IMG/VR virus record: IMGVR_UViG_3300037847_002973
Coordinates: 1 to 29,896 of that record
DNA: 29,896 nt
Source: a virus
Reading direction: 5' to 3' (one strand)
Positions 2,675 to 25,077 of this stretch are shown here, in pieces; the first letter of the stretch is position 1; each line of letters begins with the position of its first letter. A model generated the notes under the pieces. It was not told the DNA's origin and did no database searches. It was given only the letters and a program-made list of their open reading frames with translations. A program made the translations under genes and the position numbers.

Positions 2675-2682
2675 TTATCCTC
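2675..2682 (-). promoter_or_regulatory. Ribosome binding site merged with upstream stop codon
   Basis: On the minus strand GAGG (2682-2679) lies four bases before the ATG at 2674. Its first two bases are the last two of the TGA stop (2683-2681) of the 415-aa gene. This fixes the start of the YHYH gene and suggests re-initiation by ribosomes finishing the upstream gene. Confidence 0.65.
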
Positions 2683-3928
2683 AACTAATAACGTTAATAG
2701 TTCCCTGCATTGCAGCATGGATTGTACATTGATAATACAATGTGCTAGGAGCGTCCATTGGAACAGTCCAATAGAGAACGTTACTACCACTACCACTTTG
2801 ACCAGCAGTGTATGGATTACCTGCTAAACCTTGAGTGCTTTGAATTCTGAATGGATGAGCACCACCTTGTACGCTGTTATCAAAAGCGTAAGTAAATCCT
2901 CTATTCACATATAAGGTAGGATCATTAGCGGTTGAAGGGAATCCTGGTCCTTGGAAAGTGAAATCGGAAGATCCGTTTGCATTAATTTCCCACCAAGTAA
3001 TAGGACTACGAGTAACAATCCAATCGCTACCATTCCAGAATAATGAATCTCCTTGAGTAGGAGTACCAAACTGAGCACCACTTGACATGTCAGTGTCAGT
3101 CATTGCTGCAAATGTAGTTGGAATAGTTCCATTAAATGCAACAGTAACTGTATCACCAACAACACTAGTAACGATGTCAGCACCACCAGCAATCGTCAGA
3201 GTATCAGTCTGAGTATTTGCTGTTGTACTACCAGTATCTGCGGTTACAGTAGCAAACAAGTTAATGCTTGCAATACCAGCAGCATCATCTCCAGGTAACC
3301 ATTTGCTGCTAGAAGCATTCCACTTCAGAACCTGGTTATTTGTAGGAGCATTGGTTGTTGTATCTACATCCAACAAAGCATCAACACTAGAATATTGAGT
3401 CAATATCTTTGCTCTAGTGTCTCCAACACCGCCAGCAGTGATATTAATATTTACATAAGGACTATCGTCACCATCAACAGTGAAGAAATAACCTTTGTAA
3501 TTAGCAATGGCAGGAGCAGAACTTAATGTTGCATATTGGTTTTTGTATTGAATTTTCGTAGGAAAATCAATAACACCAGTAGCACCATCAAAGACACTGG
3601 TAACACTTCCATGAGAAATGTTTACATCTCCAGTTCCATTGGGATTTAAAATAATATTGCCATTCGACGCCGAGATAATCTCGTTTCCGTTGACATTTAG
3701 AGCGGCGGTAAGAGTGTCAAGATTACCAGGTTCAAACCTGTTATTTGACGTATATTTCAATACTTGATTGAGAGTTGGACCAGAAACGCTCAGTTGAACG
3801 TCGGTTCCATTTCCAATCGCACCATATACTTCATTAAAGTTATCATTAATCTTATCACCGCCCGCACGGAGGGTATCCCCCGTGTTATCATTAGCGGAAG
3901 CGCCAATACCAATAATTTGCTTAGACAT
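2681..3928 (-). CDS. gp9/gp10-like baseplate protein with C-terminal cupredoxin-like domain
   Basis: 415 aa. The N-terminal 45 residues (NDNTGDTLRAGGDKINDNFN and nearby) closely resemble the N-termini of T4 gp9 and gp10, which read TGDILFDGGNKINSDFN and TGDYLRKGGIKINENFD from memory. That segment belongs to the part of those proteins tied to the baseplate, so attachment to the wedge is a reasonable inference. The middle (about 50-310) is low-complexity beta structure with three QVLKYTSN / QVLKWNAS / DSLFWNGS repeats, as in fibre shafts. The last 100 residues form a cupredoxin-like domain with H358 and C401-x2-H404-x2-M407, homologous to those in the next gene (shared VPxDAPxxLYxxC). Nothing of the T4 gp9 or gp10 C-terminal domains is evident. 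The gene follows the giant by 23 bp and carries its own late promoter candidate. It could equally be called a short fibre or fibre connector. Confidence 0.8.
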   Translation of the reverse strand: MSKQIIGIGASANDNTGDTLRAGGDKINDNFNEVYGAIGNGTDVQLSVSGPTLNQVLKYTSNNRFEPGNLDTLTAALNVNGNEIISASNGNIILNPNGTGDVNISHGSVTSVFDGATGVIDFPTKIQYKNQYATLSSAPAIANYKGYFFTVDGDDSPYVNINITAGGVGDTRAKILTQYSSVDALLDVDTTTNAPTNNQVLKWNASSSKWLPGDDAAGIASINLFATVTADTGSTTANTQTDTLTIAGGADIVTSVVGDTVTVAFNGTIPTTFAAMTDTDMSSGAQFGTPTQGDSLFWNGSDWIVTRSPITWWEINANGSSDFTFQGPGFPSTANDPTLYVNRGFTYAFDNSVQGGAHPFRIQSTQGLAGNPYTAGQSGSGSNVLYWTVPMDAPSTLYYQCTIHAAMQGTINVIS

Positions 3929-3948
3929 TACTCGCAGTGATTTTTAGT

Positions 3949-3956
3949 TATTTATA
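3949..3956 (-). promoter_or_regulatory. T4-type late promoter TATAAATA
   Basis: The minus strand reads TATAAATA (3956-3949), an exact match to the T4 late promoter -10 box. It sits in one of the few intergenic gaps here, 20 bp upstream of the ATG at 3928. The TAA stop of the giant gene (3954-3952) lies inside the box. By T4 spacing, transcription would start near 3943. It would give the fibre-like gene and the YHYH gene transcripts independent of the 21-kb gene above. An exact 8-mer of this composition can occur by chance in AT-rich DNA; its position is the main support. Confidence 0.6.
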
Positions 3957-6900: not shown

Positions 6901-9900
6901 AAATGTTTGATCATCGGTAAAGGAACCTGTGTCAAACGTTTCAGACCCAGAGTCAAATTTAACACCAGAACTATCAAATGTTTCAAACGATGTTAGATTG
7001 TAATCTCTAAATTTAAAGTGTTGACCAGCGGTGGTGTTATCTTTAACATGATCAGCAGTTTGAGTGCCATCAGGAGCAAGAATCGCATTCGCAGCATAAG
7101 TCGTATTGCTACTAGACCAGTTAGTGCTGAAATCTTCTGGATTTGTCCAGAGGTTTGTACCAGCAATTTGACCTTCAATCAGACCAGTAATACCAGCAGC
7201 GGTAGTTTTAGTTCTGACATTACCAGGTTCTGTATACCAATCATATGCACTTCCAACACCACTGGTAGCAATAGTTGCTGTAGCACCAGAAGTTTGACCA
7301 GTCAGAGTTTCTGCAGCAGACCAAGTTGTACTTGTAAAGTATGGTCCGATAATCAAAATAGAATCATCTTCCAACCATTCATTAACGAGAGCATATCCAC
7401 CACCACTAGAAACAACGGTCTCTCCAACGGAGAAGTCACCAGTCACACTGGTTAATGTAATGTTGCGTGCGTCTTCTTTCTTATAGAAGTCGGTTGTCAT
7501 TATGTCATGAACAATATTGGTGGTGAGTTCATCAACAAAGTCGTTATAAACCCAAGATCCAGCACCAAACTGAACATTAATTTCAGAATTAAGTTCTGCT
7601 CTATAGTAATGCTCATTGAACAGAATTTGCTTACCAGCAGATCTTGCGGGTGTGCCACCAGGAGCAAGGATTCCAATGACAATATCAACCAGAGTACGAA
7701 GACGATAGATTACTGCATTGATATCGGATGGAGATTCGCTATCGCGATATGCAGTTCCAGTCTTAGGAGTGCCACCAGCGTTATTTCCAACACCTGCATA
7801 TTGAGCAGCATATTGACTACCAGTTACAGAATCTCCGTTGTTATACAGAAGATTATTCAATGCTTTTTCGCCAAGTTGCTTAAGTTGCTCGATTGCATAA
7901 ACTGTTGCCAACAATTCGCCTTCAACACTAGTGATTCTTTGATTACCATCAAGATAAAGTTCAGCAGCACGAATTGTGCTATTAGTTCCACCAGTTTGCA
8001 GGTCAGAAATGATACTAATAAGAATCAGTTTAAGATCTCTCTGACAGGTAACTTCGCCACTAGATCCAGGATATTGGAATGCATTGTAAGTAACATTGTT
8101 CAGAGTATAAGTAAACTCTGCTGTTGTGAGACCCGTTGCTTCTTCAGCAATGTATTGCCTATTGAAGTAAAGTCTATCTGCACCGATTTGATAATCAGCA
8201 CCTTTAGGTGCGATAATCTCATTTAAAGTAGAAATTAATGTATCGATTGCAGTCTTGACATTTGCACATCCACCACCATCTTGAGTAATACCCCAATCAC
8301 CAGTAATAATTTTATCAGTATTAGTGCTATCAAGATCACCAGTAATTGCCTGCTTCATGTAGAAACCAAGTCTCTCATGAGCATATTCCGATTGCCATAC
8401 TTGCAGGCGAATATGAATCAATTCATCATTAGCACCAAGATATTGTCTTGCTACATTTGCTGTATGGAAATTACCACCATCTTCAACGTCCTTAACAAGT
8501 TCATTAAGAAGCAAACTAAGGTCAGTTTGACATCTCAATGTTCCAGCAGTGCTAGATCCATTTTGGTTTCTTGGCATATCTTCTGCAAGATCAGGATATC
8601 TTTGCAGTAAGTCGAACGATGCCTTATCTACAATAGCACCAGCATTCAATCTAATTAAGTTAGCAGCATCACGGAATCTATACTGAGTATCTGCATCAAT
8701 TTGATTTGTATAGAAGATATTATTTGCAGCATCAACGTAATCAATTGAAAGATCAACATCGCTAAATGCATCAACTGTTGCACCAGCAAATTCAAACGCA
8801 GGGTCTACCTTAGTTACGCTAGCAAGATGATCAACTGGTACTGGGAGATTTGCATTACTGAGTGTATCAATAATGATATCCATCAAGTTACCGATGGTTG
8901 TATAAACATCAGAACAATCACCAGAATCAAAGTTTGATACAGAAACAGAGTTGCTAGCAGCAGAAACAAAGGTGTGAGTGTATCTTTGTCTGACAGGAGA
9001 TGCTCCAACATTAACTGTAAATGTGTTGGTATCTGCAGCAGTAATTTCAAGTAAGGAATTCAGATTTGCAGAATCGGGATCAGGATATGCTTCCTGACTC
9101 TGATTACCATCTAATGTACATGTAAATGTCAGTGAATTGGGAGCAATATAAATTTCATCACCCGCACGAATGACTCCGTTAGATGTTGCACTTACGAATG
9201 TATGAGTATAATTACCACCAGTTGTGATTGCGTTCGTTGCAGAAGAAACAAATGTATGAGTGTACTGAGTTGCAGTGACCACTGCACCTGATGTAGCGGA
9301 TACGAAAGTATGTGTTGTCGTATTGCTAGAAGTACCAACATTAAGTGTAACTGCACCAGTTTGTTTGATCAACGCACCAGCAGTTGCTTGTACAAATGTA
9401 TGACTTGTAGTATTGGTAGAAGGACCAACCTGAATAGTAAATGTGTTGGAGTCAACAACTGTTACATCAATCCACTTTCCGCTGATAGGATCAGTAGTTC
9501 TAGGATAAGTCTTCTGAGAAGCATTATTATCTTGAGCGCAAGTGTATGTCAGAGAATTGTCTGCAATCTGAACTCTATTACCAGTAGAAAGTCCATGAGA
9601 TGCCGAAGTAATGGTGATAACACCAGTGCTAGGCACATAAACTGCGTTGGTAATGTTTGCAGTGGAAGTTCCAACTGCGCTAATAGTCAGTTCGGAATCA
9701 TATGCACGATCTCTCTTGACCTTAATGCCGTTAGAAGTTGCTGATACAAATGTATGAGCGTATTGATCTCCTTGTGCAGAAGCACCAACATTAACTGTAA
9801 ATGTGTCTGTGGTAACTGCAGAGATAACCAAGAAAGTTTCATATGCGGGATCAGGATTTCCGTCCCCTGCAACTGCACGAGGATAAGTCTTTTGAGCACT

Positions 9901-12900
9901 ATTGCTATCCTGCGTACAAGTAAATGTGAAGGAATCATGAACAAACTTAACTTGATCGCCAGTTGATAATCCATGACCAGCAGAAGTAACAACAAACTCA
10001 CCAGTTGAAGAATTATAAGTTGCATTGGTAGCAGTCTTATTATCCAAGATAGATCTAGGATACAACTTGTTAGTTGCGTTACTATCTTGATCGCATGTGA
10101 AAGTAAGAGATTCCTTGCCAAGACGAATCTTATCGTTGACATTCAAACTATGAGTTCCGATCTGAAGAACCATATCACCTGTGGTGGGGTTATAGCTGGT
10201 TCCAGTTGTAGGAGTATAAGTTACTCTGTTAGGTCCAACATAGACTGTAACTGTGTTATCCCTCTTAACAATACCATTAGGTACAGCAGACACGAATGTA
10301 TGTGTATATTGATCTTCTGCCTTAGAGGGACCAACATTAACTGTGAATGTGTTGTTGGTTGCAGCAGTGATCTTCAACCATCTGCCAGCAAAAGGATCTG
10401 TGGGACGGGGATATGAATGATTTGTATAGTTATTATCCTTAGAGCAAGAGAATGTTAATGAATTATTTTCAAGTCTAACTTCATCAGAAGTAGTCAATCC
10501 ATGACCGATAGCAGTGATAACGATCTCACCATTTGCAGGATTGTATGCTGCACTAGAGACTGAAGCATTAACAACCACGCCATCATTATAGATGGGGAGA
10601 GGAACGTTATTGTTTGCAGGATCACTGGAACGAGGATATGTGTGATTAGAAGCACCACCATCCTGACTACAAGTAAATGTCAGAGCATCATTGGTAAGTT
10701 TGATTGTTTCACCAGATCTTACAATACCATTTGCCTTTGCACTAACAAAGGTATGAGTAGAAGTATCAGAAGAAACACCAACATTAATATCAAAGGTATT
10801 GGTTGTGATATTCGTGATTGCAAACCACTTATTAAATGCAGGATCGGGACCAGCATCACCAGCATATTGTCTAGGATAGGTATGATGAGTTGCATTGCTA
10901 TCTGTAGCACATGTAAACGTCATCGAATTGGGTTCGATGAGAACGCGATCACCAACAAACATTCCATGATTGGGAACTGTGATAGTCATAGCACCCGATG
11001 CTGGAGTATAGACCGCATTAGTTGCTGTAAACTTCTGAGAAGTTCTCAAATCATGATCACCGATGGTCATCTTGAGAGCACCAGTTCCAGGATCATAAGT
11101 CGCTGCAGTTGGTGTGTAGTTAACTGTAGGCGATGCACCAACGTTAACATCAAATGTATTTGTAGTGACGTTAGAGATAATCATCCAACCCTGACTTGCA
11201 GGATCATCTGCTCTAGGATAAGACTGAGAAACTGTATTGCCGTCAGAAGTGCAAGTAAACGTCAGAGAGTTATCAGCAAATTGAATTCTGTCGCCATTTG
11301 CAAATCCATGATTATTAATTGTAACTTGCAGAACACCTGTGGTTGCAGTATATGTTGCGTTTGTTGCAGTATGAGTAGTTCTAGCAGTAAGACCATGACT
11401 ATTTGAAGTCAAGACCATTATGCCAGTCGAAGAATCATAAGTTACATTAGTGGGTGTTAATTGCGTCAGAGAAGCATAATCAGATTCAGTGATAGTAGAA
11501 TCTGTACTTTGTGTCAAACCATGATCTCCTTGGATATCCCAAAGAAGATTGGTAATAACGAATCGCACAATTTCTTGTGCTTTTTGTAAAGTATAAATCG
11601 ATTCGGGAATTTCAGATTCAATATGATAAAGAGAGATTGGACTTGTCGCTCTATTAACATAGAGTGCCGCAGCATCCCAAACATGGTTATTACTACCATT
11701 ACGAAGGTCTTCAACAACTGCTTCTAAGATATCTACAACGTCATCTTCGCAATTTACATCACCTTTAGGAACACTGAAGGATGCAAATCTTGCCTTCATG
11801 ATATCTACTGCTTCTTTAGCAATAAAGTCTTTATTTGCAAGGATTAAATCAGCAGCATCAATATATCTCTGACTATTGCCAGTAAATCCAGCAGGAGCAC
11901 CAGTTAAGCGAGATGTTGCAAGAATTGCTTCATTATTGATGTCCTCACCCTTAGTGAAGTTTTCAACGCCAGACCAATCTTCAGTATGAGTCTGACCATA
12001 AGATCCATCAAAGTGGACCAGAAGTTTTGCATTAGCATCACCTTGGAATACTCCGTTAAGTGGTGTGAAGTTTGCTGTATAACGAGCATTATTAGAAATT
12101 CTAACCTCGTCAACATAACCAGCAAAGTCATTTGATGCATCAAAGTCAGCACCAATTCTGACTGGTTTGGTAGATCCATAGTTACTAGCATCTGTATAAG
12201 TGGATCCTTCTTGTGTACCATTCAGGAACAACTTAGTGCTAGTACCGCTTCTGGAGAGGGCAACGTGATACCAAGTTCCAGCAGAGAGATTTGTAGATCC
12301 GCTAATTGCAGCACTACCATTATTATAATACTTAAGGTTTGCACCATCAAGATATATTCTAGGTGAAAGTTCAGTTTCTTGAGTTCTGAAATCAAAGATT
12401 GCTCTCTCGCCAGCAGAAACTAAGAGAGGGTTGATCCAACATTCAATTGTAAAATCACCAGAAGCAAATCCAAATTCAGTAGATGTAGCAAAACTGATAT
12501 ATTCATCAACAGGAACTGCACCAACGTTTACTGTAATCGTAGTGGCAGTCACTGCAGTAATATTACGGGCAGATCCTGATGCAGGATCAGTAGACCGAGG
12601 ATATGTTTTATTTGAAGTGTTATTATCCTGAGCACATGTAAATGTCAGGGTATCGTCTGCAATAAGGACTGTATTGGACGTTGTGAGAGTATGAGCACCA
12701 ATCTCAAGAACCAAGTTACCAGTCTCAGGATCGTATGTAGTGCCTGTAGCAGCAGTAAATGTGCCTGTAGCACCACCACTAGCGGTAATAGAGTCTGCAG
12801 TGCCACTTACAAATGTGTGTGTAGCAAGACCAGGTGAAAGTGCTAATGCAGCAGTTCCAAACTTCTTATTATAAGTGTTCAGAGTTGCATTAGTGAAAGT

Positions 12901-15900: not shown

Positions 15901-18900
15901 TGTAATTTCAACAATACCGCCTTCACCATCACCAGCAATAGGAACACCAGAATATACACCAACTGCATATTCAGTTCCAGGATCATTGATTTCAACTCTT
16001 TCAATTTTTCTGTTGGAAACAATGGAGGAAACAACTGGCAATCTAGTGTAGAATCCACCGCTGTTTACTACTCTAATAGAATCAATAGATCCAACAGCAT
16101 TTGGAGAACTAGTAGAATACTTAGAATTTGCTACTTCTGCAGCACCTTCAGGTTCATTGAGAAGTAAGAATTTAAAAGTATCATCGCCTCTAGTAATTGA
16201 ACCACCAGATGTTGCAACAATATCAAAAATACCAGTGTAGGGAGAATCAACAACATCGAGATAACTTCCAGGAATAACTGGAGAATCTGCACCAGTTCTT
16301 GAAGGATCAAAGTAGTAAGAAATATTTGTAACGATACCTCTGTCTACCTTCAGTTTGACAGAAGGAGTTGGAAGTCCCTGACCTGTTAATCCTGGTGTCC
16401 CAACACGCTCAATAGAGTTGAAGGAATATTCCAGTTTGTAGAGATTATCCTTGGAGAACGACAGGTTAGTACCAACCATCGTACCATGACTGACATCAAA
16501 GACATATTGATGCCCATAATACATTTTAAGGGTAGGAGACTTAGTGAACAGAGAGACTCCTGCCGAACCAGTGGTTCCCAATGCGGGAAGAGTAGAAGCA
16601 GTCGCAGGTAATTTATATGTAAATTCAATTGGACTTACAATTGTATCTACAGGGAAAGAACCATTATATTCGCTAGTTTGACCAGTTGCTTCATTACCAT
16701 CAATATAAAGCATTTCTCCAGCACGAAGATAATGCTTACTGCCAGTAACAACATATACCTCATCAGTATTAGCAACAGCAGTCACTTTTAAAATCTTAGA
16801 AAGATTTGCAACGATAGTAATCTTAGTTACATTAGTAAGATTACTAATGGTCATAATATCTTTAGTTGCGTTAAATGCAACCTGATTATTTGCAAGTGTT
16901 ACTACAGAACCAACTGCATAGGGAGAACTTCCAGTAATTTCATCAACTCTGATAGAGTAATCATTTGAACTATAATCTTTCCAAAGAGCAAATTGATCGA
17001 GGTTATTAGTTCCACCAGATCCAGGAGCAGCATAATCGTCAAGATCAATAGTAAAGTTACCAGGTGTAGTATCTTCTACTTGAGCGAATGTATAGTTGGA
17101 AATATCATTTCTAACATTTGGTACAGGACCAACAATTCCAAAACTAGTATTATTAAATTGCTCAAAAGAAAGTTGACCTGTATTTAAATCATCACTCCAA
17201 ACATTAGAGTTGATAGCAACGTATACATGAGTATCATCATATCTAACAATATAACCAGCATTAACCTGAGCACCAAGATTATTTCTAAGTACGAGATTTA
17301 AGTTATTTTCAGCGTTGAAACTTTGATTGATCGTCAGTTTTTGAATATTATCAATCTTCAGTGTATTTGTAACTTTGAAGTAATAACGATCTTTGACTAC
17401 TGCGGTTGCCTTTAGTTTTTGAGATCCAGGAGAAGGAACTGTAGCAGTTCTGGTACTCCAAGTTCCAGGGACATAAGTCAGATTCTCAGTATCCTGTGCC
17501 ATAGTAGTTGTGGCATCATTATAATCCAGAGATTGAAGTCCTTGAGCACCAAGAGTGTAATCTGCACTGACTATCGACAAAGCAGTTCCTGTTACAGGAG
17601 AAACAGCAGTTCTCTTAATGGATATACCTGTTGTAGAAGCAACACTAGTAAAGTTTCCAATTCTAGCAGCGTCTGAATTTTTATCAGTCTTTAAGATATA
17701 ACCATTATAGTCAATATAATCGTATTGATTGAGATTAGTTGTAAACCATGCATCATCTACCCAATCAAATGCAAGACCAAATGCTCCTGCAGCAGGATAT
17801 GCAACAACGTCTCCAGGAACTGTAGGAGTAATCGCTCTGTTCTTAAGTCTTAAATTTTCAACAAAGAACTGACCCTGCTCATTACTTCTGAAGGTTCCTG
17901 CACTACCACTTCTACCAGGAATATTACCAATGTAGAGATCCTTACTAGCAAAGGAAGTATTAGTAATTGTGGAAGAGAATACAGAATTGCCATTGACATA
18001 AGCAGCAAAGGTATCACCACTCTTTCTTAACGCAATAAATTGCCAAGTATTATCGGCAAACATATTGGAGAGGGAAGATTGTAATGGACTGGAAGAAGAA
18101 TTGATAGTAGTTGTATTATTGGTTACAACTAGTTCAAGTTTACCAGTTCCAATATCATAGTATAACCAAAGACCACCAGTTGCACCAGAAGCATCACCAA
18201 TTGCAACTAAGGTATGTTCTGTTTGAGACAGAGTTCCATTACCAGTGTAATTCTTATAGAGCATAAACTCTAATGTCCAATCACCATCAAGTTTAGTTCC
18301 CAATTGAGCACCAGTAACTTTTTGATGTGCGTTTACCCAAGTTGCAGTGTTACCAGAGGGATCATATCCATAGATCTTAGCAACATTATCAGCATAAGTT
18401 ACCGAATTAGTTGTGGTTTGTGTGGTAAGAGTATAGTGACCTGTTGTATCAGTAGTTGAACCAGAATCAAAGGTGTAAATGAATTCATTTCTATTCCAAG
18501 ACGTTTGTCCAACTGCATAAACATCACCAGATACATCAGTTGCAAGACCATTAACTTGCATACCTTCAATATTACCAGCATAAAAATCATTAGTAGTATG
18601 ACTCAAAATAGTTCCATCATACTTAATTTTTACTGTATCAATAGTCTTCTGAGAAGTTGTTGTATCAACTCTAGTGAATGCAACATTAAGATCACCAAAG
18701 ATATCAATAACAGACTTTTGTGCCAGGTTGATTTCTCTACCAGGAGCAATATATCTCTTGTTCCAGAGGAGAGCACCAGCAGAATCAACTTTACCAACCC
18801 AGAAACTATCTCTGCGTAAGTCGGACTTAAGACTTAATGTGGAGCAAACATAATATTCGTTAAATTCATCTACAGCAAGAGACGTATCTAAGAAAGAATA

Positions 18901-21900
18901 TCCGTTATTACTAAATTCTTTGATAAAGTCAACTGTAATAACACTAGTTCCTAAAGTACACTTACCAAAAGCAGCGTTGATTGCAGTAGAGGAATTGGTT
19001 GCAGAAGTCTCCATTGTAAAGTAAATGGAGTTATCTTCAGCAAGAACCATGGAAGTAATCTTCTCGGAAAGATTCTGAGAGGAAATCTTTCTCTTGATAG
19101 CAAAATTACCACTAGTATCAATGCTTGCAATGAAAGCATCGTAAGGATTGGATGAGTTGGTATTTGTAAAACCACCAATAATGAATCTGGTATCAGAATA
19201 CTTAATGATACTAGTTACTTCATCGGCACGAGTAGAACCAGAGATACCAGCATATCCTTTTTGGAATCCAAGAGTTGCACTCAACCCGTTTGCTGCTTCA
19301 ACATACTTACACAGAATAATATCTGGATTATAAGCAGCAACCGCAGATTGGTTGGGTTTATTGATACCAACTACCCAGATGTTTGTGCCATCTGCATAAA
19401 TTCTCTGGAATTCTGCAAAATCTTCTCCATCATCACTCTCAAGAGTCTTTTCCCATTCTTTAGATCCAGTTGCAGAAATTTTAGCAATAAATGCAACATC
19501 TTTATTACCTGCAGCATTCTTTGTAGTACCACAAACATATGCAGACTTATTAGGAAGTAATTGAACATCATTGACTTTTACGTTGTCATTATTGTTCAAT
19601 GCAGAAACATAATAATCTGCTTTTTTAAAGACCTGAGGATGAGAAAGAATTACTCGGGGATTCTTTGTATATCCAGAACCAGAATTGACAATATCAACTC
19701 TCTCAATAGCACCAACACTATTAACAACAGCAGAAAGTGCTCCCGAATTTCCATCGCCATCAATGATTAATGTAGGAGGAATGTCAGAATTGTATCCAGA
19801 TCCAGTTTGAGTGATAACAATTTCTTCAATACCCTTATACTGCCTAACAACATATTGTTTGTTAGTATTATTCATTGTGGGCGTGTAGTCAACAAAAATT
19901 CTGTTGCCCACAGACATATTATGTGGATTTGTTGTCGTAATGGTTCCGTAACTTACACCACTTTCATTAAGAAAATTATAAGTGGAAATAGGTTCACCAG
20001 TAATTCTAGAAATTCTAGCAGATACACCTAAACCATCAGTATCAGTATTATCAAATACTAATCTATCATCTACCTGATAGTTTTTGCCTGGGTTTTCAAT
20101 AGAAAACCCTGTTACAGAAGCATCCTCAAATTTAGTGATAGTTTCAACTTCAATATCGACCTTAGAGTCAAATTTAACAGCAGGGAAATAATCAAACAAT
20201 TGTAAGGGCGATTCTTCCAAAACAGAGTCGGGATCAGCAGTTTCATCTGCAGTGATTACGCCATCTCGGTTTTCATCTTCCACTTCAAACAATAATAATG
20301 AACCATCTTCCAGAGTCAACTGATTGGTAGATGCATTAGGTGTTCTCTCAACATCAATATCAACGTTCTCGTATGGATCGCGATATCTTACAACACCAGT
20401 AGGAATATTTTGCTGAACAGCATCTGAGACCAAATTCCAAGAATCTACAACCGAATTGAACGTAGGTCCAAGAACATATGGGAATACAGGTACACCAGCA
20501 TCACTATTATCGATAGTGACAAAATAACAATATCTGCCTTCAGGATATTCTGGAGTTTTACAGAAACGTCCGTTATATTGATCCAGTTCACCTAAGTTGA
20601 AGATATACTCATAGTCTTCAACAAACGTACCTGCAGGTTCATCGCTCAAAGCAGGACCATCGGTTCTTTGAGGAGAAATATTAGTATTCTCATCAAAGAT
20701 TAAGGATGGTTTTACTCTATAAGAAGAACCAAGTCTTACAATACTGGACTGCTGATCGGTGGGATCTTGATATGCATAAGGTCCGTAAATTGGATTACCA
20801 TCAAACGCCCAACCAATAATGGGAGAGTGAACTGCATGATCGGTAATTTCTTGAAGTGTTCCATCACCAAGAGTTTCTACACCATCACCCAATACTTCTC
20901 TGAGTTTCTTTGGAGTAGAAAGATGGGCATATTCACCACCATATTGATTATTAAATCCTTCAAATACACCACCTTGAGCAGCATCAAAAGTTGTAGAATT
21001 TTGAAGGTTGTAAGTCCACTGGAATACATTTGAAGTGAACAATGCACCTTCACCAACAGAATTGAGATTGATTAAGGTAGTTCCTTGTACATAACCAATA
21101 CCTCTGTTGATAATGTCAATACTAGTAACCCTACCAGCATTTTCACCATCGGTATCAATATTTGCTTTTGCTACTGCACCAAAACCAACACCTTGAATAG
21201 TAACTTCAGGTGCTGTGGTATATCCAGAACCAGCAGCGATAATAGCAATAGAAATAATTCGACCATTATTGACAATTGGTTGAGCAACAGCACCACTACC
21301 AGAACTGAGAGTTACACTTGGTTTAGAAGTATATGATGCACCACCATTGGTGACATTGATTGATTGAATAGGACCTCTAACTGCTGCTGTAGCAGTTGCT
21401 CCCGCTCCTCCACCACCAACAATGGAGATTTGAGGTTGAGATGTATATCCAGTACCACCCTCATTGATAAGAATTCTAGAAACTGCACCCTTAGTGATAA
21501 TTGCAGTAGCAGATGCGCCAGTTCCACCACCACCAACAATAGCGACTAATGGAGAAGAAGTATAACCACTACCACCTGCGGTAACATCAATACTATCCAG
21601 AGAACCATTAACTACAACCTCTGCTGTAGCACCAGATCCAGCACCACCAGAAATAGTTGCGGTTGGTGGAGATGCAGCATCATAGTTACTACCAACATTG
21701 TCAATAGTGATGCTAGTAACAGAACCAAAAGTTTTGGTAATAGAGGATTTGTACGACCAAATTGAAACACCATTGACCCATGTACCAATAGGACCAGGGT
21801 TAATAGTATTCTTAGATGAAATTGTAGTCGATACTCTAGGGAATCTATTTAATTTACGTTGGTTGCCAGGTAGAAGTGCAGATCCAGGGAAGGGTCCAAT

Positions 21901-24900
21901 CTTATAGTTGGGAATACCTGTTGATGCAACATAAACGTAATCATCATTGAAGAAAGTATTTTGAATATTAGTCGTATATGGACTAATAGCGTTAAATACA
22001 GCAGAATTGTCAGACTTACCTTTGTTAAGGTCAATAGAAACTAGAATATTACCCTGTGGAGCAACAGCAGGGGGTTGAGGCAATTCGTATTTAAATACTG
22101 TAGGACTAGTTCTGTTCTTAACTAAGAATGTTCCATTGTAAATGATTGGATTTGCACCATAAATTGAAATCTGGTCACCAACCAACAAACCATGATTATT
22201 TGAGCAAGTAACTTCTGCAATATTACCATCAAAAGTAATAGAAGTAACTTCAATTAATTTTTTAACGTTGTATAACCAAGTCGAAAGATCAGCAGTATTA
22301 CCAGTACCACCTAACTTAGAAATTGATAATTTATCGCCAGGAAGATAGTATGATCCAGTATCAGTAAGAGTCGTTTGTTCGGCATCAACGATACCAACAA
22401 CTCTCATGAGAACTTCTCTATCAGTTCCTTTATTGATGTAGACACTAAAGTTTGAAGTTACCTCTGTAGCAGAGTCCCAAACTTGAGCAGGTCCACTAAC
22501 AGTAGCACCACGAGTACATTCAATAAACTGGTTTAGGGATTTTTCTTTATATTGTACAACTTCAGTTCCACCAATCAAGAATTGTCCGTTTCTTTCTGGC
22601 CAACCAATTGTAGAGTCTACAGTGATAATACTATCAGTGGTAGAAAGAGGTTCTGCTAACTTTGTTTTATAAGGAACTACAAATTTACCCTGAATAGTTT
22701 CTTCGGAGAGAACCAATTCATAAATTTCAGTTTCAGATGTTCTAATAGCAATATAATTTTCTACCAGAGCACTTGCCGCTAAAATATTAGGATCTGCAAT
22801 ATCAGCATCTTGCTGTAGTAAACCATCTCTAATATTGATAGGATCACCAGATACTAAAACTGCTCTTAAAACAGTATCAATTGACCATGTAGATGCAGAT
22901 GGTTTGATAATCTGATCTTTGGGGTAAGTTACGCTAACTTCTTCACCATAGAGGAGTTTGAACAGATATGAAATACTGAAAGAAGTACCTTTAGAAGTAT
23001 AGAAATCTCTTACACTTTTAATTGCATTTCTAACATCAATCTTAGTATAGTCAAGTTCAGGAACGTCGGGAAGGAATTGTTCCGTATACTTATCAAGAAG
23101 TCGTTTAATAAAGAGAGCGTCTAGACATTTAACAGGAGTATCTGCAGTTGCTGCCGCTGCAGTTGTATTGTTAGAAAATACTGCGTTACCATCTTCAGTA
23201 TACTTAACAATACCACTAGCAGCTCTAGCACAACCCTCGAAAGATGCCTTTGAGTATCCGCTACCTTGCTTATTAATTTTATAACCAGTTACTTCATTCA
23301 GACCAATATCTACAGACGCTCTAGCATTAGGAGGTTCTTGAATAAAAATTTCAGGAGGTTCTGCAGCACTATATCCACTACCAAATGCCGATACATTAAT
23401 ATCAGTAATTTTACCATTGAAAATAGAGGCAGTTGCAGTTGCTCCACTTCCACCATTTTGACGATTATCTACAATATAAACAGAAGGGACATCATCGTAT
23501 CCAGATCCTCCATCAAGAAGATCAATACCAACAACACGTCCATCTCCATCAACGCGAGTTTGAAGAACTTGAGCGCCAACAGGATCGATAATAGCAATTC
23601 TAGGAGTAGTTTCGTATCCTTGACCTCTATTAAGAATATTGATAGAGGTAACTACACCATTAGTAAGAACTGCTTGGAATGATGCCTTAATGGAGTTATC
23701 TCCAGTGGGTTCGTCAACATAAATTGCAGGAGGTGTGGTATATCCAGATCCACCATCAACAATAGGAACAACGCCTGTAACTTGACCGCCACCAATAGTC
23801 AGAGTTCCTAATTTTGCTCCACCAGGTTGTTTGAACGTGACTCTAGGAGTAAAAGTATATCCACTACCAGAACTAACAACCTCCAGTGAAGATACAGAAC
23901 CATTCGTGACAGTTGCTTTTAATTGTGCAGGAACAGATCCTGCCTTTGTAGGAACCTCTACGATAACCGCAGGTGGGTTTGTATCGCTATACCCTTTACC
24001 ACCATGCAGAAGGGTAGAACTTTTAACTCCATTAACCAGAGTTGCTGCCGAAGCACCAAATCCCGACTCAGAGTTAATAGTTACCTTAGGAGGATACTCA
24101 AATCTATAATTTGATCCACTAACACTAGTAGAAATAGAAGTTAAATTACCATCATCATTTACACGAGCAAAACCAACTGCATTTGCACCAAAAGAAGGAA
24201 TAGGTGCTTCAATTGAGAATAATGCGAGTTTTCGTCCATTTAGAGGAGCAGTTTCAAAAATGAAATAATCTCTATCAATATAAAAATCTTGTTTAGGGAT
24301 CAACAATTGATTATCATAGATTGCAATGAGAAACTCATCTACAATGGGTTCATAAGGAATACCCGATCTTGTCATTTTGAAAGAAGTTTTACCTTCTCCA
24401 AAAGAACCAGAAATATCATCAATCTCAAGGATATTATTTTCAATAAAACCACCAAGATAGAAGATATAAGTTAAATCACTAGAGTCTGCAGGAATTCTAG
24501 TTCTAGGAGCAGTTGTAAATACAATATTAGTTCCACTAACAGTATAATCAACTCCAGGAATTAAAATCTGTCCATAAAGACTGACAACTAAATGCTGAGG
24601 TGTTGGTGGTGCTGCAGGATTACCAGCAGTTCTTAATGGAAAGATCCTAGTTGTTCCATCATACGAATCAATTTGACTCTCAGCAATAGTCCACTTTAAT
24701 TTTACTTGCTCATAGGAAATACCAGGACTGAGAGCAATGTTTGGTGCTGATTTTGTACTTTCATAATAAATTACTTCATCACCAATTAAAATAGAACCAT
24801 TTTTTTCTACAAACTGATCAACACTCTCTACAACAATAGATGTTGAAGTTGTAGTAATAGGTTCTACAATTTGCGTACCCCCGTCCAAGATACCGATATC

Positions 24901-25077
24901 AAGTTTGTCAATATCAAGATATTGAATGAATTCATTAACAATATTTTGTCCCAAGCCCGTTTTTTCTTGAGACCTATAGTAATACTCAATAAACTTATTG
25001 AAAAGTGGATAGTCTGATCTAATAAAATCGGGACTAATAGCGTTGACCGATTGCGAGACCTTATTGACGTTACTCAT
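3952..25077 (-). CDS. gp7: Giant (7041 aa) gp7-like baseplate wedge protein with many inserted adhesion modules
   Basis: One uninterrupted frame with ATG 4 bp after the gp6 stop. T4 gp7-like pieces: PDFIRSDYPLFNKFIEYYYR (16-35); FYTSKG..YLFKLLYGEEV (692-714; T4 has FYSTKG..YKFLFKVLYNEEV); DSYYYQDFSYAVKS..W3469..VHP (3477-3479; T4 has RSYYVMKIKS..W..VHP, same W-to-HP spacing). T4 gp7 is 1032 aa, so most of this protein is extra. Modules in order: GSGY array (292-626); second GSGY array (about 1112-1340); YHYH domain (1410-1540); propeller-like repeats (1816-2203); LamG-like 1 (2220-2416, W2267); HGL/GSGY modules and a degenerate cupredoxin-like stretch (from 2846); gp7 segment; NGVVQNPG module; LamG-like 2 (4071-4350, W4214) with an LTFTC insert; helical Cys module (4402-4515); LTFTC/HTFVSA array (4530-5385); more helical Cys modules (5386-5866); carbohydrate-binding-like jelly roll (5975-6285); two NGVxQxP modules; two final GSGY repeats. 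No signal peptide or membrane span. Expected role: wedge assembly plus a large peripheral structure. gp7 identity is strong by motif and position; binding functions are inferred. Confidence 0.85.
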   Translation of the reverse strand: MSNVNKVSQSVNAISPDFIRSDYPLFNKFIEYYYRSQEKTGLGQNIVNEFIQYLDIDKLDIGILDGGTQIVEPITTTSTSIVVESVDQFVEKNGSILIGDEVIYYESTKSAPNIALSPGISYEQVKLKWTIAESQIDSYDGTTRIFPLRTAGNPAAPPTPQHLVVSLYGQILIPGVDYTVSGTNIVFTTAPRTRIPADSSDLTYIFYLGGFIENNILEIDDISGSFGEGKTSFKMTRSGIPYEPIVDEFLIAIYDNQLLIPKQDFYIDRDYFIFETAPLNGRKLALFSIEAPIPSFGANAVGFARVNDDGNLTSISTSVSGSNYRFEYPPKVTINSESGFGASAATLVNGVKSSTLLHGGKGYSDTNPPAVIVEVPTKAGSVPAQLKATVTNGSVSSLEVVSSGSGYTFTPRVTFKQPGGAKLGTLTIGGGQVTGVVPIVDGGSGYTTPPAIYVDEPTGDNSIKASFQAVLTNGVVTSINILNRGQGYETTPRIAIIDPVGAQVLQTRVDGDGRVVGIDLLDGGSGYDDVPSVYIVDNRQNGGSGATATASIFNGKITDINVSAFGSGYSAAEPPEIFIQEPPNARASVDIGLNEVTGYKINKQGSGYSKASFEGCARAASGIVKYTEDGNAVFSNNTTAAAATADTPVKCLDALFIKRLLDKYTEQFLPDVPELDYTKIDVRNAIKSVRDFYTSKGTSFSISYLFKLLYGEEVSVTYPKDQIIKPSASTWSIDTVLRAVLVSGDPINIRDGLLQQDADIADPNILAASALVENYIAIRTSETEIYELVLSEETIQGKFVVPYKTKLAEPLSTTDSIITVDSTIGWPERNGQFLIGGTEVVQYKEKSLNQFIECTRGATVSGPAQVWDSATEVTSNFSVYINKGTDREVLMRVVGIVDAEQTTLTDTGSYYLPGDKLSISKLGGTGNTADLSTWLYNVKKLIEVTSITFDGNIAEVTCSNNHGLLVGDQISIYGANPIIYNGTFLVKNRTSPTVFKYELPQPPAVAPQGNILVSIDLNKGKSDNSAVFNAISPYTTNIQNTFFNDDYVYVASTGIPNYKIGPFPGSALLPGNQRKLNRFPRVSTTISSKNTINPGPIGTWVNGVSIWSYKSSITKTFGSVTSITIDNVGSNYDAASPPTATISGGAGSGATAEVVVNGSLDSIDVTAGGSGYTSSPLVAIVGGGGTGASATAIITKGAVSRILINEGGTGYTSQPQISIVGGGGAGATATAAVRGPIQSINVTNGGASYTSKPSVTLSSGSGAVAQPIVNNGRIISIAIIAAGSGYTTAPEVTIQGVGFGAVAKANIDTDGENAGRVTSIDIINRGIGYVQGTTLINLNSVGEGALFTSNVFQWTYNLQNSTTFDAAQGGVFEGFNNQYGGEYAHLSTPKKLREVLGDGVETLGDGTLQEITDHAVHSPIIGWAFDGNPIYGPYAYQDPTDQQSSIVRLGSSYRVKPSLIFDENTNISPQRTDGPALSDEPAGTFVEDYEYIFNLGELDQYNGRFCKTPEYPEGRYCYFVTIDNSDAGVPVFPYVLGPTFNSVVDSWNLVSDAVQQNIPTGVVRYRDPYENVDIDVERTPNASTNQLTLEDGSLLLFEVEDENRDGVITADETADPDSVLEESPLQLFDYFPAVKFDSKVDIEVETITKFEDASVTGFSIENPGKNYQVDDRLVFDNTDTDGLGVSARISRITGEPISTYNFLNESGVSYGTITTTNPHNMSVGNRIFVDYTPTMNNTNKQYVVRQYKGIEEIVITQTGSGYNSDIPPTLIIDGDGNSGALSAVVNSVGAIERVDIVNSGSGYTKNPRVILSHPQVFKKADYYVSALNNNDNVKVNDVQLLPNKSAYVCGTTKNAAGNKDVAFIAKISATGSKEWEKTLESDDGEDFAEFQRIYADGTNIWVVGINKPNQSAVAAYNPDIILCKYVEAANGLSATLGFQKGYAGISGSTRADEVTSIIKYSDTRFIIGGFTNTNSSNPYDAFIASIDTSGNFAIKRKISSQNLSEKITSMVLAEDNSIYFTMETSATNSSTAINAAFGKCTLGTSVITVDFIKEFSNNGYSFLDTSLAVDEFNEYYVCSTLSLKSDLRRDSFWVGKVDSAGALLWNKRYIAPGREINLAQKSVIDIFGDLNVAFTRVDTTTSQKTIDTVKIKYDGTILSHTTNDFYAGNIEGMQVNGLATDVSGDVYAVGQTSWNRNEFIYTFDSGSTTDTTGHYTLTTQTTTNSVTYADNVAKIYGYDPSGNTATWVNAHQKVTGAQLGTKLDGDWTLEFMLYKNYTGNGTLSQTEHTLVAIGDASGATGGLWLYYDIGTGKLELVVTNNTTTINSSSSPLQSSLSNMFADNTWQFIALRKSGDTFAAYVNGNSVFSSTITNTSFASKDLYIGNIPGRSGSAGTFRSNEQGQFFVENLRLKNRAITPTVPGDVVAYPAAGAFGLAFDWVDDAWFTTNLNQYDYIDYNGYILKTDKNSDAARIGNFTSVASTTGISIKRTAVSPVTGTALSIVSADYTLGAQGLQSLDYNDATTTMAQDTENLTYVPGTWSTRTATVPSPGSQKLKATAVVKDRYYFKVTNTLKIDNIQKLTINQSFNAENNLNLVLRNNLGAQVNAGYIVRYDDTHVYVAINSNVWSDDLNTGQLSFEQFNNTSFGIVGPVPNVRNDISNYTFAQVEDTTPGNFTIDLDDYAAPGSGGTNNLDQFALWKDYSSNDYSIRVDEITGSSPYAVGSVVTLANNQVAFNATKDIMTISNLTNVTKITIVANLSKILKVTAVANTDEVYVVTGSKHYLRAGEMLYIDGNEATGQTSEYNGSFPVDTIVSPIEFTYKLPATASTLPALGTTGSAGVSLFTKSPTLKMYYGHQYVFDVSHGTMVGTNLSFSKDNLYKLEYSFNSIERVGTPGLTGQGLPTPSVKLKVDRGIVTNISYYFDPSRTGADSPVIPGSYLDVVDSPYTGIFDIVATSGGSITRGDDTFKFLLLNEPEGAAEVANSKYSTSSPNAVGSIDSIRVVNSGGFYTRLPVVSSIVSNRKIERVEINDPGTEYAVGVYSGVPIAGDGEGGIVEITVADGSDSGGSVIPGQIQKVQVTSFGVGYTTASIDIEAIDGILGPGNTGSGADLNVVIPPFGTGASVFTKGTSVGKIKRLKNNNFGYDYPHDYTLRPEITFPINAQLTSTSILASITVTDPGSGYSQAPEVVITGGGGTGAIAAAEIKNGRLNQIVVKDPGSGYSSEPTIQLKSSFNYVVNTDLGLLQFAFPHGITNGAEITLNVVDTGDGTAFPEASGATTLNGTTTYYAIAGSANSLEDDQLKIAISSANAALGDAITFVDGESGRGVGRQQVLTSSFGGAATANVETSTFLEGELVYQGNSLETAVATGYVSTNNGWQVGPRILKIVDYDGTFSLNERITGVISKSSGVISDLKVAKGVLEIGSITKTSGQFTDDVGKPSEIIQKIQDSYYYQDFSYAVKSAVSINDWKDILLKNVHPASFKVFGELNLDEYGSIPNKETTFQITKSVELAREAIVPNIQSFALVQPIYSEFNNTEILFRQKRLTSSENILTSFTNQIDDISDQFDGVKRAFTLKVNNTPVQANANQLMIVLNGVVQNPGTSFTIEQDSIVFAEPPQPDAQVQYVETTINLKDVIELTFTNISGIFPNIGDVMVGSDSNARLTVTKVVGNNVFGFLTEVVAGNLVSFIGGEFVTVGATGFNANFATATAVESDGLYAFGEEVRNLAGKTARVEEINLAAGAETPLAELRFSIGATTSTIEVIAYNADPNAPAAPVPAGNLVPTKIYQFGSELFRVDTITDNSDSTTLTVTRATGLNNGTVSDSQSSGTPLYGTEINVTTRLLLSKTTGTYQSKPGLFEINQNDFIIGSQSDVVAEVTFVASYVAPNAQIDPTTGLPESSGEFDISDGSSFFGLLFNRIAAQTYPNVVLDDISKSQVNIVDFPTNTTDFDDKFPSTEPISNNVIKYDNASGAFTENEVIRNYKMDYGIGNTLDYAVGETAKSRKLAVKNLKGNGLFNKGQVVRTQDTKAEVIGYNIADKIIYVGKIGRTQANGQDYHSATFTNATLNTYNKKFGTAALALSPGLATHTFVSGTADSITASGGATGTFTAATGTTYDPETGNLVLEIGAHTLTTSNTVLIADDTLTFTCAQDNNTSNKTYPRSTDPASGSARNITAVTATTITVNVGAVPVDEYISFATSTEFGFASGDFTIECWINPLLVSAGERAIFDFRTQETELSPRIYLDGANLKYYNNGSAAISGSTNLSAGTWYHVALSRSGTSTKLFLNGTQEGSTYTDASNYGSTKPVRIGADFDASNDFAGYVDEVRISNNARYTANFTPLNGVFQGDANAKLLVHFDGSYGQTHTEDWSGVENFTKGEDINNEAILATSRLTGAPAGFTGNSQRYIDAADLILANKDFIAKEAVDIMKARFASFSVPKGDVNCEDDVVDILEAVVEDLRNGSNNHVWDAAALYVNRATSPISLYHIESEIPESIYTLQKAQEIVRFVITNLLWDIQGDHGLTQSTDSTITESDYASLTQLTPTNVTYDSSTGIMVLTSNSHGLTARTTHTATNATYTATTGVLQVTINNHGFANGDRIQFADNSLTFTCTSDGNTVSQSYPRADDPASQGWMIISNVTTNTFDVNVGASPTVNYTPTAATYDPGTGALKMTIGDHDLRTSQKFTATNAVYTPASGAMTITVPNHGMFVGDRVLIEPNSMTFTCATDSNATHHTYPRQYAGDAGPDPAFNKWFAITNITTNTFDINVGVSSDTSTHTFVSAKANGIVRSGETIKLTNDALTFTCSQDGGASNHTYPRSSDPANNNVPLPIYNDGVVVNASVSSAAYNPANGEIVITAIGHGLTTSDEVRLENNSLTFSCSKDNNYTNHSYPRPTDPFAGRWLKITAATNNTFTVNVGPSKAEDQYTHTFVSAVPNGIVKRDNTVTVYVGPNRVTYTPTTGTSYNPTTGDMVLQIGTHSLNVNDKIRLGKESLTFTCDQDSNATNKLYPRSILDNKTATNATYNSSTGEFVVTSAGHGLSTGDQVKFVHDSFTFTCTQDSNSAQKTYPRAVAGDGNPDPAYETFLVISAVTTDTFTVNVGASAQGDQYAHTFVSATSNGIKVKRDRAYDSELTISAVGTSTANITNAVYVPSTGVITITSASHGLSTGNRVQIADNSLTYTCAQDNNASQKTYPRTTDPISGKWIDVTVVDSNTFTIQVGPSTNTTSHTFVQATAGALIKQTGAVTLNVGTSSNTTTHTFVSATSGAVVTATQYTHTFVSSATNAITTGGNYTHTFVSATSNGVIRAGDEIYIAPNSLTFTCTLDGNQSQEAYPDPDSANLNSLLEITAADTNTFTVNVGASPVRQRYTHTFVSAASNSVSVSNFDSGDCSDVYTTIGNLMDIIIDTLSNANLPVPVDHLASVTKVDPAFEFAGATVDAFSDVDLSIDYVDAANNIFYTNQIDADTQYRFRDAANLIRLNAGAIVDKASFDLLQRYPDLAEDMPRNQNGSSTAGTLRCQTDLSLLLNELVKDVEDGGNFHTANVARQYLGANDELIHIRLQVWQSEYAHERLGFYMKQAITGDLDSTNTDKIITGDWGITQDGGGCANVKTAIDTLISTLNEIIAPKGADYQIGADRLYFNRQYIAEEATGLTTAEFTYTLNNVTYNAFQYPGSSGEVTCQRDLKLILISIISDLQTGGTNSTIRAAELYLDGNQRITSVEGELLATVYAIEQLKQLGEKALNNLLYNNGDSVTGSQYAAQYAGVGNNAGGTPKTGTAYRDSESPSDINAVIYRLRTLVDIVIGILAPGGTPARSAGKQILFNEHYYRAELNSEINVQFGAGSWVYNDFVDELTTNIVHDIMTTDFYKKEDARNITLTSVTGDFSVGETVVSSGGGYALVNEWLEDDSILIIGPYFTSTTWSAAETLTGQTSGATATIATSGVGSAYDWYTEPGNVRTKTTAAGITGLIEGQIAGTNLWTNPEDFSTNWSSSNTTYAANAILAPDGTQTADHVKDNTTAGQHFKFRDYNLTSFETFDSSGVKFDSGSETFDTGSFTDDQTFTLSFFAKAGTRSNLRYEVGLDAGTGNNSQRVFFNVDLDNGAKGSVNILDGGGNVGDIIVNANNIETLGSISIITTSAMTGTYTSVANTSNVSNGGAGATFNVTIDHANQPNQATITVTNTGSNYAPGDNFTVTGSVLGGADGTNNLTFQVATVTPMDTGVIPYGDGWYRIFTTARFGFGFSTLRQQIYVLNNQATDYTGTGNDGFYLWGAKLNKGALDPYQAVSGETFFSNTEFNIKSRILIRLTEWMSKSLDNTLTSPTSGGNYAYYDNTINTDYAKASITRMIRYLNGLIQSQLGSTAFNNTIPFYSGISVPAKTYGVRDIAVGVGGGVDATEYVYGLQSDAYAEIKNKVENSATIARIYKRFRIDGAITDGPFVMNEVVTKQGDSSVTGQVYGFHEDATYKYLDVAVTGGTWAITDVLVGATNTTTAQISLIEDRMHVIDLKGGFTTDIPFKGYTSGSNATPDVFYKNTAAVNDNTGGTLSVDTDTLTGEFEKTAVVYPDTSRQYIDVSKYEGLDVNVGDRIASSGQIRLGISVITAQNVTYNNFTPGNRLYKVVGGGQVTNVYGIITGVDLANNYIYFTPVQGTFSNGEQVGDYGPSGSLPFPVGYATINTNVTTAGAASALIQNFETVGTLTRYYLSNIVGAFTANDAVIGPNGFKAAIINLVDLKGRVKRSFKGFDGTTTTFKLSINNGTQYLPDPAGHMLIFVNGVLQPPGATNAYTAFSDQIQFTEAPDAGASFVGFYIGKLRQLDDISFEFDSLRQSFNLKRNDVFYSLTLTDGVQSTNILPENNIIVSLNGVIQKPKESFEIVGSRIIFSEIPRVGSTFVAFSYVGSEADVDAAEVVPPIEPGDLLDIQGEVEDREVAIIESSNSLITFDYLGSVFGRGSEATANVTTGSIESVKVTFGGSGYTSRPAVNASAIQGSGANIRALVGVASIEVSNQGTGYQNPEIVVETSVPDDWTAPDLSQYGEELIDPEIL
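6215..7165 (-). other. Carbohydrate-binding-like jelly roll interrupted by a GSGY module
   Basis: Residues about 5972-6285 of the giant protein. It opens with NLWTNPEDFSTNW (W5977), has LAPDGTQTADHV and FTLSFFAKAG, and closes with GWYRIFTTARF (W6226) and GFYLWGAKLNKGALDPY. This is the layout of the phage and bacterial jelly-roll modules that read NLLxxSEDFxxxxW...APDGTxTAD...FxKAG...WYR...YxWGAQLExG. Between the FAKAG strand and WYR sits about 100 residues containing a GSNYAPGDNF repeat of the GSGY kind. Glycan binding is an inference from that resemblance. Confidence 0.6.
7480..8925 (-). repeat. Alpha-helical Cys modules (degenerate repeats)
   Basis: Residues about 5386-5866 of the giant protein, with an earlier copy at 4402-4515 (DNA 11535-11875). 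A full unit has a helix such as DAANLIRLN, a (N/R/T)C-x2-DL/V helix (C4443, C5516, C5678), a DGG/GSN turn, and a helix ending before the next module. Shorter helices beginning with DCSDVYTT (C5388), GCANVKTA (C5604) and SPSDINAV alternate with them. These are nearly the only helical parts of an otherwise beta-rich protein, so they may act as spacers or oligomerisation struts. The function is not known to me. Confidence 0.6.
8930..11470 (-). repeat. LTFTC / YPR / HTFVSA tandem module array
   Basis: Coding repeat in the giant, residues about 4530-5385. A full unit is roughly 90-120 aa: YxxxTG, HGLxxGDxV, a (L/M/F)TF(T/S)CxxDxN core, YPR, DP, a TFTVNVG strand and HTFVSAxxNGI. Eight TF(T/S)C cores lie here, one with Tyr for the second Phe, and a ninth lies inside the second LamG domain. 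The lone Cys, the Asp three residues after it and the YPR are nearly invariant. Between about 9165 and 9415 the array decays into short HTFVS-only units of 18, 18 and 30 aa. It resembles an adhesin-type beta stack; I know no experimentally defined function. Confidence 0.75.
12000..12870 (-). other. LamG-like domain 2 carrying an inserted LTFTC module
   Basis: Region of the giant protein, residues about 4071-4356. The first LamG strand (KKFGTAALALSPG, 4071-4083) is followed by an entire LTFTC/YPR/VNVG unit (C4148), and only then by DEYISFATSTEF and FASGDFTIECWINP (W4214), W4269 in TWYHVALSRSG, and VDEVRISNNARY. In standard LamG/concanavalin-type sequences the first strand runs almost directly into the second, so the unit reads as a domain insertion. 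LamG folds often bind glycans or calcium; no ligand is shown here. Confidence 0.65.
21040..21745 (-). repeat. GSGYxxxP beta-repeat array 2 (about six units)
   Basis: Coding repeat in the giant, residues about 1112-1340. Units read VGSNYDAASPP, GGSGYTSSP, GGTGYTSQP, GGASYTSKP, AGSGYTTAP and RGIGYVQGT. Units two to four share GGGGxGAxAxA linkers and are closer to one another than the units of the first array, so this block looks younger. The YHYH domain follows about 70 residues later. Confidence 0.8.
23205..24200 (-). repeat. GSGYxxxP beta-repeat array 1 (about eight units)
   Basis: Coding repeat in the giant protein, residues about 292-626. Each unit is 35-45 aa: an NGxVxxI strand, then (G/S)G(S/K/Q)GYxxxPP, then a hydrophobic strand and a small-residue linker ending in AxA. 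Units read SGSNYRFEYPP, GGKGYSDTNPP, SGSGYTFTP, GGSGYTTPP, RGQGYETTP, GGSGYDDVP, FGSGYSAAEPP and QGSGYSKAS. The array separates the first gp7-like segment from the second. Units differ too much at the DNA level to suggest very recent duplication. Confidence 0.8.

Follow-up and report, generated by a model that had tools for sequence, protein, structure and literature searches.

A relative of the baseplate protein gp7 is described as forming a heterotrimer with two gp6-type proteins in T4, in the T6SS and in phage XM1 (PMC10457771, PMC6300606). Two of these relatives are also described as adaptors for host-contact proteins. The gp7 orthologue of Vibrio phage XM1, gp17, reportedly holds the tail spikes by its C-terminal region together with an internal loop (PMC10457771), and TssG of the T6SS reportedly binds two TssK trimers through two loops (PMC6300606). 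Both are small proteins, unlike the giant protein presented below, with which they are compared by published description.

For marine T4-like phages, gp7 has been listed under the non-cyanophage core genes, with the remark that gp7, like other large proteins, has diverged strongly (PMC3037559). It is said to be absent from cyano- and pelagimyophages, apparently substituted by VrlC (PMC7029224), and a 2010 review states that cyanomyoviruses lack g10, g11 and g12 (PMC2984593). The protein encoded in the slot after gp6 is labelled gp7 or baseplate wedge initiator in the GenBank entries of P-SSM2, P-HM2, S-SM2, S-SZBM1 and S-RIM8, and that of S-SCSM1 (4120 aa) is annotated 'virion protein'. S-SZBM1_208 is reported to be represented by 71 peptides from CsCl-purified particles, with 13.5% coverage, in a phage for which the authors observed no long tail fibre (PMC9146016). 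For S-CREM2 ORF122, which directly follows two inner wedge genes, 91 unique peptides are reported (PMC10665884). A giant gp7 is thus not new as such, since same-slot relatives already bear this name, nor is it peculiar to the phage analysed here. As far as we found, the splitting of its core is apparently undescribed: open-access titles and the beginnings of abstracts yielded no description of a split gp7 core.

A giant gene in the gp7 slot

The window analysed is a stretch of 29,896 bases, the IMG/VR virus record IMGVR_UViG_3300037847_002973. Its nameable genes are all on the minus strand, as are the features of the giant gene described below. In the order of that strand, they are a 470-aa ORF (phrog_719), a PAAR-family ORF, gp25 (139 aa, 27130..27549; PF04965, 9.5e-16), gp6 (682 aa, 25082..27130; phrog_219, 7e-224; PF21379), a 7041-aa ORF (3952..25077), a gp9-like tail-fibre connector (415 aa, 2681..3928; PF07880, 1.1e-7; phrog_677) and phrog_708, a further wedge protein whose gene is interrupted by the window end. 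The giant gene immediately follows those of gp25 and gp6, and the order gp25-gp6-giant agrees with the gp6-gp7 order of T4, where gp7 is likewise encoded after gp6.

The first-pass annotation had called a single 7041-aa ORF at 3952-25077. This was confirmed as a continuous frame coding for a 752-kDa product, with the correction that it reads on the minus strand. Synechococcus phage S-E7 has an identical gene order across this stretch and an equally long counterpart, which is annotated in GenBank as a 'hypothetical protein' and carries the remark 'cyanophage only'. The two proteins are identical at 7010 of 7041 residues, and their genes differ by 129 synonymous and 33 non-synonymous changes (dN/dS 0.078). 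The equal length and the low dN/dS indicate a real gene under purifying selection.

PHROG 701 spans most of the window protein, which is longer than the named giant gp7s of cyanophages, S-SZBM1_208 (6619 aa), S-RIM8 (6395 aa) and P-SSM2 (5195 aa). It has in common with them the post-gp6 slot, three core segments and enlarged gaps between these. S-SZBM1_208, which carries all three segments, is collinear with the window protein up to residue 3987 of the latter and again close to its end, with ~43% identity over residues 1-2585 and 2693-3987, 41% over 6368-7026, and patchy similarity in between. ORF101 of S-TIM4 is the orthologue of the giant protein according to match lists; the host-adaptation paper on that phage, as far as its accessible text goes, names no ORF101 mutation.

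Annotations of related loci showed two irregularities. S-SZBM1_205 (stretch 9260-11107) is labelled wedge initiator, yet it has no gp7 core segment and matches the giant protein in module regions only, so that its label looks transferred. In S-H35, there is no annotated feature beneath the matches to segment 3 (KY945241) and segment 2 (NC_055719); the giant gene was apparently overlooked when these records were annotated.

The gp7 core and its link to T4

Three gp7-like stretches in T4 order had been proposed within this one protein. We searched it with segment profiles built from seven non-T4 compact proteins, including neither T4 nor any giant, and the proposal was borne out. Segment 1 (residues 1-57; 24907..25077), which corresponds to T4 gp7 ~644-695 by profile alignment, scored 24.4 bits at residues 5-34 and was also aligned by hhalign. 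Segment 2 (residues 647-733; 22879..23139; T4 gp7 ~700-762), which has a KGT motif, scored 58.8 bits at 661-733, and segment 3 (residues 3438-3494; 14596..14766; T4 gp7 ~848-898) scored 60.2 bits at 3446-3489. Each segment is single-copy, and their order is that of T4. The Pfam family PF23786 (Baseplate_wedge) also matches the giant protein in segment 2, at 27.3 bits for a cut-off of 27, but covers residues 674-723 only. The non-T4 training phages came from tblastn matches to window segment 2 or 3, so their possession of one of those segments partly reflects selection. TIGR02242 was found below its cut-off on two of the six homologues scanned (phiM12 and Melnitz-3) and was not found on the two window pieces scanned.

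Segment 1 by itself is short (24 bits), as might be expected if the resemblance to gp7 were a chance or repeat artefact. However, among 300 shuffled versions of the window protein the highest scores were only 2.3, 2.6 and 8.7 bits with the profiles of segments 1, 2 and 3 (1.1, 2.8 and 4.8 bits in 200 shuffles with T4-containing profiles), and the segments are single-copy, ordered and present in 10/10 giants. Such an artefact is thus vanishingly improbable, and a chance origin is refuted for segments 2 and 3.

A strong match to T4 gp7 was also obtained with an alignment that contained T4, but it was set aside as circular. With T4-free profiles, segment 2 matched T4 gp7 firmly (29.1 bits) and segment 3 weakly (11.0 bits, E 0.018), the best of 500 T4 gp7 shuffles being 5.0 bits; the segment 1 profile used alone did not detect T4 gp7. 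Segment 1 of T4 is tied in by a longer T4-free profile of segments 1 and 2 from six compact proteins. Among 177,635 PDB sequences, its top match was T4 gp7 (E 7.3e-10, T4 residues 647-759), followed by gp7 of phage KP1 (E 3.2e-8) and then by a match at 0.81. By hhalign, the T4 family aligned with the compact proteins in segments 1-2 at 98.2% and a score of 94.7, where none of 60 column shuffles exceeded 20.9, and with the cyanophage core in segments 2-3 at 97.8% and a score of 88.2 (highest shuffle score, 20.4). No signal was obtained by hhalign to P2 gpI, used as a single sequence. The core of the giant protein is thus homologous to that of T4 gp7 via the compact homologues and hhalign, and we regard its identity as gp7 as extremely likely. 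Also supported are the claims that the pieces share homology with a single gp7 core and that this core was retained.

The core order is shared with T4 gp7 (5IV5, 5HX2), where it occupies residues 647-759 and 848-898. The giant protein differs from it by gaps of ~626 and 2712 residues and by 3552 residues beyond the core. In addition, the ~640-residue N-terminal region of T4 gp7 has no detected counterpart: T4 residues 1-640 gave nothing significant anywhere in the giant protein (best blastp E 0.52), whose core match begins at residue 5. The giant protein is therefore a gp7-core orthologue rather than a full-length T4-type gp7.

A fourth piece of the core, domain V, probably persists just after segment 2. 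In T4 gp7, Pfam places this domain at residues 766-861, between segments 2 and 3. In the window protein, residues 735-801 (22675..22875) are a probable remnant, matched by the domain V HMM at 768-801 with 11.5 bits, against 5.7 bits for the best of 300 shuffles. By hhalign, domain V of the cyanophages aligned with that of the compact proteins (P 1.2e-7) and the latter with that of T4 (P 5.5e-6); the cyanophage piece aligned directly with T4 domain V gave 0.034, inside the shuffle range and not significant. The compact Melnitz homologue, as modelled by AlphaFold (mean pLDDT 52.6, poor overall), has a better-predicted barrel following segment 2, which VIA-align superposed on T4 gp7 765-841 (Z 8.6, rmsd 2.0 Å, 76 residues) and on KP1 gp7 (Z 8.8, 1.9 Å, 74 residues), if chains 5iv5_BJ and 9f4a_A0 are gp7, as inferred partly from chain length. 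The T4 sheath protein gp18 ties at Z 8.8 on a different region of the model, and elongation-factor-type barrels score ~5-6.9; the domain V match thus needs its position in addition to Z. As domain V is probably kept, the second insert would be located beyond it.

Sheath-like matches were observed elsewhere in the family. The match of the Melnitz model at Z 8.8 is to the T4 sheath fragment 3fo8, and a beta-repeat region of YB07 (residues 261-308) and ACP17 (263-307) has a sub-threshold match to Pfam Gp18_dom_I (tail sheath domain I).

AlphaFold predicted the core with low confidence in window residues 1-760 (pLDDT 46-58 in segment 1 and ~31-63 in segment 2) and mostly below 50 in the compact Melnitz homologue. 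The segments would very probably fold jointly as one gp7 core.

Compact and giant homologues and the inserted sequence

Proteins in the same slot after gp6 vary widely in length, with 482 aa in ACP17, 503 in YB07, 523 in pf16, 586 in SRB7757 (from a record without annotation, hence only presumably in this slot), 767 in Cr30, 896 in Melnitz-3, 1007 in phiM12 and 1032 in T4 gp7. We compared the gaps in 20 proteins, namely 10 compact ones, T4 gp7 and nine giants (3007-7041 aa, with the window protein and its near-twin of S-E7 both counted). All nine giants carry the three segments, as do the 10 compact proteins (482-1016 aa), seven of which trained the profiles; S-SZBM1_208 raises the total for giants to 10/10. 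The compact PF23786 proteins (ACP17, YB07, pf16, SRB7757, Cr30, Melnitz-3 and HTVC008M) share the core and the slot with the giant protein.

In the compact proteins, the first gap has 1-113 residues (at most two in 6/10 and 11-113 in 4/10) and the second 101-798. The first-gap insert of Melnitz-3 lies somewhat earlier in the alignment than that of the cyanophages. In the giants, the first gap has 119-132 residues in six proteins and 626-635 in S-RIM8, S-E7, the window and S-SZBM1, the second has 1584-2790, and 544-3552 residues lie beyond segment 3. The values for the window protein are 626, 2712 and 3552. The extra sequence was thus correctly assigned to two internal gaps, proposed to be surface loops, and the C-terminus, both gaps being enlarged in all 10 giants. 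In a tree of the core (19 proteins, 190 columns), the eight giants included group at 56% support, and hence we do not claim a single origin for them. BUCT-ZZ01, a lake phage of Synechococcus elongatus from the same family, has a compact gp7-core protein of 607 aa (stretch 5869-7692), so that giant size is not universal in the Kyanoviridae.

Insert 1 (residues 58-646; 23140..24906) comprises beta-rich domains, including one at 212-291, followed by GSGY repeats at ~320-610 according to repeat and model analyses. The first gap had been described as mostly GSGY repeats, which is true of ~320-610, the remainder being other beta-rich sequence. AlphaFold predicted blocks of the GSGY region (residues 301-610) with confidence (pLDDT 78-93), and Foldseek with the model of window residues 1-760 gave no match at E <= 0.001. 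Insert 1 is ~70% identical among 39 aligned orthologues, drawn from the 80 closest of 412 relatives; among such close orthologues, this conservation appears unlike that of a host-range hot spot.

The predicted beta domain at residues 212-291 (window 24205-24444) resembles the T7 gp17 N-terminal and CBA120 TSP4 domains. With VIA-align, residues 209-291 gave Z up to 7.8, below the safe level of the tool, with domains of CBA120 TSP4, cyanophage A4 and T7 gp17 type. A profile of this domain (209-291) found nothing at E <= 10 among PDB sequences, and one seeded on 212-292 detected no further copy elsewhere in the giant protein. That this might be an adaptor domain is a lead only.

Insert 2 (residues 802-3437; 14767..22674) also contains GSGY repeats, together with a YHYH domain (1354-1523; 20509..21018; PF14240, 106.9 bits) and a Laminin_G_3 (ConA-like) domain (2284-2391; 17905..18228; PF13385, 29.1 bits, cut-off 27.6), as delineated by Pfam and repeat profiles. 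The C-terminal extension (residues 3495-7041; 3955..14595), delineated in the same way and by comparison with S-RIM8, has another Laminin_G_3 domain (4193-4332; 12082..12501; PF13385, 79.5 bits) and an array of THTFVSA repeats with units of ~75 residues (4589-5375; 8953..11313). The profile of this repeat found 10 copies or part copies of at least 15 bits within residues 4128-5375, one of them at 4128-4195. The inserts had been called adhesion-type; Pfam identified a few lectin-like or YHYH domains and left most of the inserted residues without an assignment.

The window protein is collinear with that of S-RIM8 over residues 3-4149 (62% identity) and 6217-7036 (57%), with a patchwork in between (~4150-6220). 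Residues 3558-3618 (window 14224-14406), after segment 3, resemble stretches near the S-RIM8 C-terminus, and the reverse also applies: residues 6740-6889 (window 4411-4860) cross-match the counterparts of 3558-3618 in S-RIM8, with 6809-6889 doing so also in S-SZBM1. It looks as if a copy of one module had passed from one of these two regions to the other. Neighbouring structural proteins of the gene cluster (window 2-2674 and 28454-29866) bear YHYH and/or GSGY modules that resemble those of the giant protein, which suggests module exchange inside the cluster.

Possible roles of the giant protein

As the bulk of the protein lies in two gaps and at the C-terminus, it is most simply read as a wedge core whose own chain supplies an arm for docking or for contacting the host. 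We put at roughly 80% the probability that a T4-like marine cyanophage encodes its orthologue of gp7 in this ORF, the protein having a wedge core and an outward arm that we infer to serve in docking or host contact. In such a protein, a core of ~200-270 residues, made up of segment 1, segment 2 with the domain-V-like piece, and segment 3, would fold into the gp7 portion of the wedge heterotrimer, (gp6)2-gp7, beside gp25. The inserts and the C-terminal extension would exit the core at fixed points and presumably form an outward-pointing arm, ~6,800 residues long in each wedge; as in T4, a baseplate would have six wedges. This arm, carrying beta-repeat spacers and lectin-like domains, would dock fibres or might itself contact the host, thereby doing the work of T4 gp10, gp11 and gp12. 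By analogy with the described systems, a role of the giant protein in adsorption is more likely than not. More tentatively, giant gp7 might replace gp10, gp11 and gp12 as the 750-kDa docking and adhesion arm of each wedge, with host contact pulling directly on the (gp6)2-gp7 trigger.

The segments might instead be gp7-derived in a chain that is cleaved, or whose inserts are passive bulk, such as spacers or virion mass, and make no host contact. The lack of Pfam assignments for most of the inserted sequence, the conservation rather than variability of insert 1 among close orthologues and the similar GSGY and YHYH modules of neighbouring genes would all fit such a protein. However, the dN/dS of 0.078 relative to S-E7 argues against it, and YHYH and ConA-like domains have been named as putative receptor-binding domains (PMC7029224). 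Furthermore, the peptides reported for S-SZBM1 fit the 6619-aa product, although their 13.5% coverage leaves room for cleavage. We thus consider a cleaved or passive chain unlikely and favour the wedge core with an outward arm.

The giant protein could also be a baseplate or tail-fibre scaffold with borrowed gp7-like pieces, the function of gp7 being met by another protein, such as VrlC. The report that gp7 is absent and VrlC substitutes for it (PMC7029224) points in this direction, as does the PHROGs category of the family, which is head and packaging. In HTVC008M, Mosig, P-HM2 and S-E7, however, VrlC is encoded by a separate gene located beyond the wedge gene that comes next (gp8 if a label is given), and a gp7-core protein occupies the gp7 slot; VrlC-type genes also adjoin the core in phiM12 and ACP17. 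HTVC008M, the reference pelagimyophage according to PMC7029224, has a 1016-aa slot protein with the three segments in addition to a separate VrlC. We therefore find a scaffold with borrowed pieces very improbable and retain the identification as the wedge gp7. In the HTVC008M genome, the gp7-core protein and VrlC coexist at 8983-12033 and 13466-19471, respectively.

These data conflict with the published claim that gp7 is missing from cyano- and pelagimyophages, with VrlC in its stead, and they settle the identity of the slot protein in the lineage of the window, where the S-E7 annotation reads 'hypothetical, cyanophage only'. The single core found in proteins of 482 to 7041 aa provides a size series with which to study how part of a machine can accommodate insertions over 10 times as large as itself, and in which cyanophage proteins the functions of the missing gp10, gp11 and gp12 reside. 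If the more tentative reading above is true, the wedge and the host-contact apparatus of marine cyanomyoviruses would be fused in one chain, with the arm carried in the way that smaller gp7 relatives bind separate spikes.
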